44,148 nt of DNA from Acidobacteriota bacterium. Lineage in GTDB: Bacteria > Acidobacteriota > Terriglobia > Terriglobales > Acidobacteriaceae. Where the stretch lies: positions 1 to 44,148 of the forward strand of contig JAJZIJ010000021.1 in NCBI GenBank assembly GCA_021810625.1, in the 5' to 3' direction. The notes under the pieces were generated by a model. The model did no database searches and had not been told where the DNA came from. It worked only from the letters and a program-made list of their open reading frames with translations. The position numbers and the translations under genes were made by a program. Positions 21,634 to 23,402 of the stretch are shown here, one piece after another (the stretch's first letter is position 1; the number at the start of each line of letters is the position of its first letter).

Positions 21634-22436
21634 TGCAAGCCTGACCCGCGCCAGAGTTGGCGGGGTGAAGTATCCAAGAAAAAATCCGGGTGGCCCATTC
21701 AAGCCTTCTTTTGGCTTGAGTGGGAGGATAGAACCCTTTGCGCTTTTGCGAAAGATGCAAATCAAACTTGGCGCGAACCCTACCGCCCGCTCCTGTCAAA
21801 GGAGTCATTCTGAACGAGCGCAGCGGAGTGAAGAATCCAGAGAATATCGGCTCGGCCAGCATCATGCTTGCACTACAAACACTGTCATCCCGACCGGAGT
21901 CCGCATCGCGGACGCAGTGGAGGGACCTGCGTTTTCTTTCCCGCAATCAAAAGCCAACCGCAGGTTTCTCGACTCGCATCCTGCGGCTGCTCGCTCGAAA
22001 TGACAATGATTTCAATGCGGAAATAGCTTCACGCAGCGGCACTTTGAGGATCATCCCACTCAAGCCAAAAGAAGGCTTGAATGGGCCACCCGGCCTGAAA
22101 ACCTGTCATCCCGACCGGAGTCCGCGTAGCGGACGTAGTGGAGGGACCTGCGTTTCTTTTCCGCAATCAAAAGCCAACCGCAGGTTTCTCGACTCGCATC
22201 CTGCGGCTGCTCGCTCGAAATGACAATGATTTCAATGTGGAAATAGCTTCACGCAGCGGCACTTTGAGGATCATCCCACTCAAGCCAAAAAAAGGCTTGA
22301 ACCGGGCACCCGGCTGTCAAGCCATATTTTAATCAAGGTGATTCACTTGACGAAGGGAGTGCCAAGTGATTTTATTGAAGTCCAAGATGCCTGCCTATTT
22401 CAAGAATGCAGTTGAGCGGCGGCTGAGGAGTAGCTC
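21634..22436. repeat. 800-base non-coding mosaic of dispersed repeats
   Basis: Contains, in order: a hairpin block CCGGGTGGCCCATTC... at 21686-21725; a GAGCGCAGCGGAGTGAAGAA unit near 21818-21850; and two tandem copies of a 212-base unit (21882-22094 and 22103-22314) starting CTGTCATCCCGACCGGAG. Both tandem units end in the reverse complement of the first block: 22054-22093 is a perfect 40-base inverted copy of 21686-21725, while the third (22264-22314) is diverged. Open frames across it are low-complexity and differ between copies, so no protein is called. Confidence 0.85.
22343..22375 (+). promoter_or_regulatory. Promoter and dyad operator of the Ntn-hydrolase gene
   Basis: TTGACG (22347-22352) and TTTTAT (22370-22375) with a 17-base spacer resemble a sigma-70 promoter about 60 bases before the TTG start. 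A 7-bp inverted repeat TCACTTG (22343-22349) / CAAGTGA (22363-22369) overlaps the -35 and spacer, and a third related half-site CAAGGTGA lies at 22334-22341. Such placement suggests repression by a dimeric regulator. Confidence 0.45.
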
Positions 22437-23324
22437 TTGACCATTGCCGCTGGATTCCTGTGTTCGGACGGGATTGTGCTTTGCGCTGATACGCAAGAGA
22501 CCGTGATCGGCTATACGAAGAACAACACTGAAAAAATTAGGGTGTGGCAAGATATGGGGCTGAACATCGCAATCACCGGAGCCGGAAATGCGGAGTTGAT
22601 TGAAACAATCGGAGGTCTCATCCAGTCCGATCTCGCAGGCAACTATTTTAAATCTGGGCGTGGGTACGATCCACGCAGCGTTAGAGAGAGGATTCAACGC
22701 ATAGTTCTTGAGTCCTTTGAACGATTCGTTGTTCCGTACGCTAATTTCCCAGCGGAAGACCGCCCATTCTTTGAGCTGCTGATAGTTGTTCACATTAGGA
22801 GCGAGATTTGGCATTATCAGTGTCTATTTAAGGTTTCTGGCACAACTATTCGCGAAATCGAGTGGGGATATGATTGCATCGGCACCGGCTTGATTATGGC
22901 CAAGAGTCTATCGGAGAGATTTTTTAGCCCCGGCATGGAACTGGATGAATTAGTGTTGGCAGTCTGTTACATCATGTTTCAAACAAAGAAATGGGTAGAT
23001 GGATGCGGCGGCAACACGGATTTAATTATTTCCTCCCCGGGAAAGCACTTTTTTGGAGGCATCGCGAGCTGTGATATTGAACTGCTCGAACGACAATTCG
23101 AGGCCAGTGACTCAGTCAATTCCTTACTCTTGAATTTACTCAATCCAAATCGAGATGATAAGAGAATTGAGTTGCTGATTTCACACGCTAAGGGGTTTAG
23201 GCAGGTTGCAACAAAGGCGCTGTATCCGGAAGGGAGCCGACTGCTCGAAACACTCAAGAAACTTGCTCCAAGCAAGCCGACCCACATTCCTACGCCGTCA
23301 GATTCTCAAACGTCAACGGATTAG
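22437..23324 (+). CDS. Proteasome-fold Ntn hydrolase (HslV/20S-beta-like) of unknown role
   Basis: 295 residues. The start must be TTG 22437: GAGGAG (22425-22430) is six bases upstream and an in-frame TAG lies two codons before. The product opens M-T-IAAGF, so removal of Met exposes Thr1. Counting from Thr1, Asp17 falls in IVLCADTQ, Lys32 in EKIR (proteasomes use Lys33) and Gly47 in ITGAGNAE, the proteasome/HslV catalytic pattern. Later, CIGTGLIMAKSL and GGNTDLII match the second half of the fold. A C-terminal extension of about 60 residues is Ser/Thr/Pro-rich at its end. No ATPase partner (HslU, Mpa) is adjacent. It is visibly more AT-rich than its neighbours and follows a repeat island, suggesting transfer. 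No propeptide. Confidence 0.75.
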   Translation: MTIAAGFLCSDGIVLCADTQETVIGYTKNNTEKIRVWQDMGLNIAITGAGNAELIETIGGLIQSDLAGNYFKSGRGYDPRSVRERIQRIVLESFERFVVPYANFPAEDRPFFELLIVVHIRSEIWHYQCLFKVSGTTIREIEWGYDCIGTGLIMAKSLSERFFSPGMELDELVLAVCYIMFQTKKWVDGCGGNTDLIISSPGKHFFGGIASCDIELLERQFEASDSVNSLLLNLLNPNRDDKRIELLISHAKGFRQVATKALYPEGSRLLETLKKLAPSKPTHIPTPSDSQTSTD

Positions 23325-23402
23325 CCGTGACCATGTGGCGGAAACGATGGCATGTCTGGTAGTGATCCGACACAACTTCAGAAACGATGCTCGCGCCAAA
23401 CG

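Follow-up and report, generated by a model that had tools for sequence, protein, structure and literature searches.

How did a gene for a proteasome-type protein come to stand alone in this bacterial contig, and what would such a protein do there? The window considered here is the whole stretch of 44,148 nucleotides from an Acidobacteriota bacterium. The initial annotation of the gene proposed a stand-alone Thr hydrolase acquired by transfer, self-compartmentalised or related to defence. In our reading, an IS1595-type insertion sequence, of which a remnant persists, brought the gene as its passenger, and the product of the gene is a Thr1 hydrolase. We assign these two statements, taken together and leaving the role aside, a probability of about 80%. 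The features on which the discussion rests are as follows.

22337 to 22355, plus strand: left terminal inverted repeat of the IS1595 type, motif GATTATTCACTTGACAAAG with 3 mismatches (motif search).
22366 to 22440, plus strand: short ORF with a GTG start, in a different frame and ending on the TTG start of the passenger gene (three-frame translation).
22425 to 22430, plus strand: GAGGAG, ribosome-binding site; a Shine-Dalgarno match also precedes the start in 38 of 46 relatives.
22437 to 23324, plus strand: passenger gene for a predicted proteasome-beta-type Thr hydrolase of 295 aa (Pfam, model, profile).
23290 to 23343, minus strand: IS1595 transposase stub, the last 17 codons plus stop (tblastn, E 9e-7).

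The coordinates bear out how the start had been read. GAGGAG at 22425-22430 is followed by TAGCTC and then by the TTG start at 22437-22439, which places it six bases ahead of the start, and the in-frame TAG two codons upstream, at 22431-22433, limits the start as had been stated. The reading frame comprises 295 codons, with the stop codon ending at 23324, and the product reads (M)TIAAGFLCSDGIVLCADTQETV, Thr standing directly after TTG. The GC content of the gene is 47.5%, against 57.9-61.5% in three neighbouring genes and 57.2% in the window, in agreement with the lower value first remarked. As for an adjacent unfoldase gene, none of the HslU, Mpa or ARC type was seen by eye in the ORF list for 17-29 kb. 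Only two PF00227 loci were found in the host genome, the window gene and the genome's own HslV, which lies on contig C15 (284.5 bits with the NCBIfam HslV model) with a neighbour that looks HslU-like by eye.

A profile search, which the initial annotation had asked for, matched the window protein to the Pfam family Proteasome (PF00227) with an E-value of 8.3e-7 and 29.3 bits, above the curated cut-off of 22.4. The NCBIfam models that match it all score far under their cut-offs; the 20S beta equivalog TIGR03634 gave 20.4 bits against a cut-off of 224, and no HslV model was among the matches to E 10. An AlphaFold2 model of the single chain, built from nine sequences, has a mean pLDDT of 77.4 and a pTM of 0.77; from residue 265 onwards, in the tail, its confidence is low. 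The model is the predicted Ntn sandwich rather than another fold. In the proposed comparison with HslV, Anbu and 20S beta, the 20S beta subunits came closest (6bdf_1: Z 24.0, rmsd 2.3, 198 residues), with Anbu near. Model residue 2 superposes on residue 1 (Thr1) of 20S beta, and when the profile of 42 relatives was compared with yeast beta2 (2.2e-17), position 2 likewise fell on chain residue 1, Thr1; the same profile matched Anbu 5nyj_A at 9.4e-14. The assignment of Lys32 and Gly47 to catalytic positions is consistent with the phmmer alignments, in which Lys32 pairs with the Lys of the EKI/SKI motif of the proteasome and Gly47 with the proteasome's GAG, the catalytic Lys being numbered Lys33 in the proteasome (PMC8665760). 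As modelled, the window product is a single-chain proteasome-beta homologue. The 60-residue C-terminal extension described earlier stood in part: a tail exists and is helical in the model, whereas its residues 265-295 have a pLDDT below 50, and the end of the extension is encoded opposite the 3' end of the transposase stub.

Relatives of the window protein were sought among genomes and contigs. A match at E 0.001 or better was present in 44 of 300 genomes of the same taxonomic family, covering 23 of 79 genera. In a phylum-wide profile search, 16 of 297 genomes gave a match at 1e-6; eight of the 16 lie outside that taxonomic family and have weaker scores. A first scan of genome contigs returned 69 stretches, none of which was confirmed, and a second one with alignment A2 gave nine loci, from Acidobacteriaceae, Acidobacteriales, Terriglobia or Acidobacteria metagenome assemblies. 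None of 23 pattern stretches in viral contigs was confirmed, and tblastn of the window protein against plasmid and phage records gave no match. Alignment A1 holds 42 relatives, after four short or interrupted proteins out of 46 were left out, and these are 16-31% identical to the window protein. In the numbering from Thr1, Asp17, Lys32, Gly11 and Gly148 are invariant in all 42, and 41 relatives have Thr at position 1 while the remaining one has Ser. Homologues lacking Thr1, Asp17 or Lys had been named as evidence against the assignment; the relatives keep Thr or Ser at position 1 together with Asp17 and Lys. The column of Gly47 holds Gly in 27 of 42 relatives as aligned, so this residue, present in the window protein, varies to some extent within the family. 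The position that corresponds to Ser169 of the proteasome, as judged by eye, is Gly in 41 of 42, and both columns weigh against our reading. Two relatives, L061 and L127, had no PF00227 match at 0.01 and 0.1 in the Pfam scans. A family member at L070:7683-8582 has Ser replacing Thr1 and is otherwise typical.

The start of translation was compared across 46 loci, excluding three of the 49 (L021, L085 and L087) in which the match stopped short of the start. The codon ahead of Thr or Ser is a start codon in every case (ATG 30, GTG 15, TTG 1), and the residue that follows is Thr in 45 loci and Ser in one. The 38 loci with a Shine-Dalgarno match before the start compare with a mean of 9.4 and a largest value of 17 after shuffling. 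All 15 Val codons preceding Thr or Ser are GTG. An internal Val or Met residue would predict other Val codons as well, and since only GTG is seen, we argue that translation begins there. Removal of the initiator Met would expose residue 2; translation starting directly ahead of the catalytic Thr would then free Thr1 without propeptide processing.

On the other hand, the statement that there is no propeptide applies to the window copy and less well to the family. Among 45 relatives, 36 keep the reading frame open through the 60 nt ahead of the start, more than expected by chance (22.9 on average after shuffling and at most 31 in 300 rounds), and Pro, Lys and Arg are abundant in many of these leaders. 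In the sole pair whose leaders align readily, L068 and L069, the majority of changes appear by eye to be non-synonymous, which speaks against a translated leader peptide. Between -93 and -78, 19 of 45 relatives show a further Shine-Dalgarno peak, which may derive from the terminal repeat. Judging by the open frames, it is possible that relatives make a second, longer form that bears the leader. The short ORF at 22366-22440 of the window resembles, in three-frame translation, the Pro/Lys/Arg-rich in-frame leader of the relatives. A hairpin in the leader that would hide the ribosome-binding site was also considered and rejected: the mean z is -0.29 over 45 leaders, with 16% below -1, which gives no sign of one.

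The neighbourhoods of homologues, another check that had been called for, reveal the company that the gene keeps. Clustering of neighbouring ORFs brought out two recurring partner genes, and Pfam identified the sampled partners as DDE_Tnp_IS1595 with a zinc ribbon and as DDE_Tnp_IS1. A transposase is adjacent in 31 of 49 loci, 17 of the IS1595 type and 14 of the IS1 type, some of these transposases being fragments at contig ends. The IS1 count includes L021, with a transposase fragment of 69 aa and a weak gene match (E 0.002); L018 has no callable gene. The remaining 18 loci comprise seven with the terminal-repeat motif only and 11 with neither transposase nor motif, and we count these 11 against the passenger reading. 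One motif-only locus, L075, matches only when 3 mismatches in 12 positions are allowed, a level at which the probability of a chance match is not negligible. The 31 transposase genes lie mostly downstream and convergent (26), three being downstream on the same strand (L066, L073, L076) and two upstream (L068, L069).

Forty-two loci were tested for repeats and duplications. Perfect 8-bp target duplications were found at 12 of 28 loci with a transposase, compared with 0 of 14 without; one further transposase locus has a 7-bp duplication, and L076 has an 8-bp duplication when the element boundaries are drawn separately. For example, L013 and L081 combine the marks of IS1595 elements, namely the transposase with its zinc ribbon, inverted repeats and 8-bp duplications, and not all loci show all three. 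According to a passage in PMC8101967, IS1595 members usually make 8-bp duplications. Among the IS1-type relatives, DDE_Tnp_IS1 was found by Pfam in L049, L067 and L076, and inverted repeats with 8-bp duplications are present in L049, L055 and L019. Acquisition by transfer is supported, with an insertion sequence as the vehicle, which the initial annotation had not foreseen. A family of small Lys/Gly/Ala-rich proteins, represented by L076:8714-9022 and present in 10 loci, recurs next to the IS1-type transposase and Ntn genes or in between them and has no Pfam match.

In the window itself, the copy is a remnant: what is kept of an IS1595 element is its left repeat and 17 codons of its transposase. 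The motif GATTATTCACTTGACAAAG is the outer repeat of intact relatives, and it has one match in the window and none in 100 shuffles. The stub is identical to the L056 transposase in 15 of 17 residues and overlaps the 3' end of the passenger gene. The search for a right repeat in the window gave none, and no target duplication is left, two gaps that weigh against the passenger reading. The site without the element can be seen in a sister species (G001), in which the same two host genes, one L28-like as recognised by eye and the other a uracil-DNA glycosylase by Pfam, stand 239 bp apart compared with 1,769 bp in the window. We propose that an IS1595-type insertion sequence with its passenger gene would have inserted between the ribosomal protein L28 and uracil-DNA glycosylase genes, and would afterwards have lost its right end and most of its transposase. 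The window also holds, at 21686-22314, a duplicated unit of some 220 bp, whose copies agree at 96% over 162 nt and at 89% over 65 nt and which carries 44-bp inverted repeats. The duplication accounts for part of the difference between 1,769 and 239 bp and does not belong to the element: the sister species has a copy of the 39-bp core in the corresponding position, and so the unit is a host repeat beside the element.

With its right end and transposase lost, and with the leader frame broken, the window copy could be a dead remnant whose reading frame stays open by chance. We consider this somewhat unlikely, because 295 codons are open and the catalytic residues and the ribosome-binding site are retained. 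Among relatives, the two closest pairs show purifying selection, with dN 0.12 at dS 1.16 and dN 0.15 at dS 1.6 (dN/dS about 0.1). The 14 pairs that are further apart have dN values of 0.33-0.56, with dS at 3.4 or saturated.

The reading as a passenger gene for a Thr1 hydrolase may be set against known systems. With the 20S beta subunits (archaeal beta; yeast beta2), the window protein shares the fold, the Thr1 register, Asp17 and Lys; it differs in that the window copy has no propeptide, the element holds no proteasome partner, the tail is helical and the gene is carried by an insertion sequence. Anbu is among the best fold matches (5nyw_H with a Foldseek E-value of 3.5e-11; 5nyw_L with Z 22.5) and also has a long C-terminal helix, whereas it is only about 16% identical to the window protein in the fold alignments and occurs in a different context. 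HslV is likewise a Thr1 Ntn peptidase, unlike which the window gene has neither HslU alongside nor an NCBIfam HslV match at E 10. The PPH and AAH families are proteasome homologues spread by mobile DNA as well, but they are borne by phages and not by insertion sequences, and PPH has about 140 residues (PMC8665760). The survey by Fuchs (2021) covers 22 bacterial proteasome homologue families and reports phage-borne homologues and no genomic context that suggests a function, and its main text contains no word beginning with "transpos-" (PMC8665760).

Insertion sequences with passenger genes are already known as a kind, and those of IS1595 elements were reportedly described by Siguier and colleagues in 2009. 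The present elements resemble them in DDE_Tnp_IS1595 with zinc ribbon or DDE_Tnp_IS1 and in the 8-bp duplications, and differ in that the passenger is a proteasome homologue. In the open-access literature searched, no description of a proteasome-type passenger was found and no paper mentions both "IS1595" and "proteasome". If our reading is right, insertion sequences would join phages among the carriers of proteases of the proteasome type. For many proteasome homologues of bacteria no function is known, and one family now has a clear context, as the cargo of small transposons, which makes its function testable with small cloned elements.

How firmly the gene belongs to its element was also viewed from the transposase side, in a search of 100 genomes with a transposase of 325 residues. 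Fourteen matches, one of them the query's own locus, reach 62% identity or more over at least 290 of the 325 residues. Twelve of these carry a gene of the present family by BLAST or HMM, and seven of the 14 loci were already known through that gene. The other two (L129 and L133) have ORFs that look Ntn-like by eye, L129 with a weak profile match at a probability of 14%. Among the fetched IS1595 transposases at 41-61% identity, no gene was detected for 27 of 28, five of the 28 having less than 900 bp of sequence on the gene side, and L136 provided a weak candidate (E 0.0028); a proteasome-like gene was found in none of four transposases at 36-41% identity. Most of the more distant IS1595 transposases (36-61% identity) have other ORFs alongside. 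Ten cargo proteins, some of them Ntn-like, gave by Pfam one DUF3800, one DUF4145 and one sub-threshold Proteasome match. Since related transposases have different ORFs alongside, we take the slot to be a replaceable cargo site.

Several of the other cargo genes deserve mention. Divergent Ntn-like cargo stands beside IS1595 transposases at L128:1861-2859, L129:2140-3060, L132:2212-3081 and L136:4374-5201, with Thr or Ser right after the start codon and mostly under the Pfam thresholds. A DUF3800 protein (E 7.6e-7) stands beside an IS1595 transposase at L163:4220-5041, and L166 has an ORF that looks similar by eye. Beside related IS1595 transposases, L147:4048-4890 resembles PADLOC PDC-S42 (8.7e-13) and L161:4025-4918 resembles PADLOC PD-T7-4 (3.2e-4).

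A quick tree of 43 proteins, without three of fewer than 200 aa, was used to compare the gene with its two transposase partners. The IS1595 labels are unclustered (15 changes against a shuffled mean of 14.5), while the IS1 labels are clustered (6 against 11.2). The starred branches force at least three IS1-label changes, and the fewest changes over the labelled rows are seven. The resolution of the tree is weak, with 20 of 40 inner branches open and several rows long. The mixing of transposase types on the gene tree is suggestive of an exchange of the proteasome-like gene between the IS1595 and IS1 element families.

For the protein itself, Asp17, Lys32 and Gly47 would complete the predicted active site, and the product would probably be an ATP-independent Thr peptidase working in a small oligomer or ring. 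Its putative substrates are small or unfolded proteins, no dedicated unfoldase having been seen. Because the module accompanies transposases of two families, and its place in sister IS1595 elements is taken by other ORFs, retention or a benefit to the host may be likelier than a part in the chemistry of transposition, a preference that we hold at even odds. More tentatively, and at less than even odds, two insertion-sequence families would share a portable module. This would be a Thr protease of the proteasome type that needs no more than its own start codon to be ready, perhaps with a second, leader-bearing form in many members, and its selectable function for the element or its host could be defence, selfish retention or transposition control. 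No earlier proteasome homologue would then be known as the cargo of an insertion sequence.

As defence cargo, the protease would be an effector against phages or plasmids, and the element would gain since hosts retain the protease. The patchy spread (the 44 of 300 genomes above), the low GC of the window gene and the replaceable slot agree with such a role, and 2 of the 10 cargo proteins of related IS1595 elements resemble PADLOC candidates. However, the defence-related role raised by the initial annotation found no specific support, the window protein matching no PADLOC family at E 10. The surroundings of the element-free copies also speak against it. Sixty neighbour proteins of at least 150 aa, within 5 kb, were taken from seven of the 11 element-free loci (L071, L082, L085 and L087 were left out). 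These neighbours are mostly housekeeping-like, as judged from 25 of their 76 Pfam families, and nine PADLOC models each appeared in one of the 60 proteins (E 1e-10). We regard defence as unlikely.

If the protease instead trimmed or removed the transposase or a host factor, it would set the rate of transposition. The tight convergent pairing with the transposase, the ends of the two genes often overlapping, would fit this. Against it, one protease family accompanies both IS1595 and IS1 transposases, and the 27 of 28 IS1595 transposases at 41-61% identity lack a detected gene, with the limit on flanking sequence given above for five. Transposition control is in our view quite improbable.

A peptide ligase like the connectase of archaea, which is monomeric, homologous to the proteasome and able to join proteins, is very improbable: the stand-alone gene, the C-terminal extension and the absent unfoldase are features in its favour, whereas in connectase two helices are inserted between strands 3 and 4 and the first pair of helices is missing (PMC8665760), and the window model is the opposite, with no insertion between strands 3 and 4, no H3/H4 insertion of the kind in PMI-2 to PMI-6, and the first pair present as helices 52-67 and 79-97.
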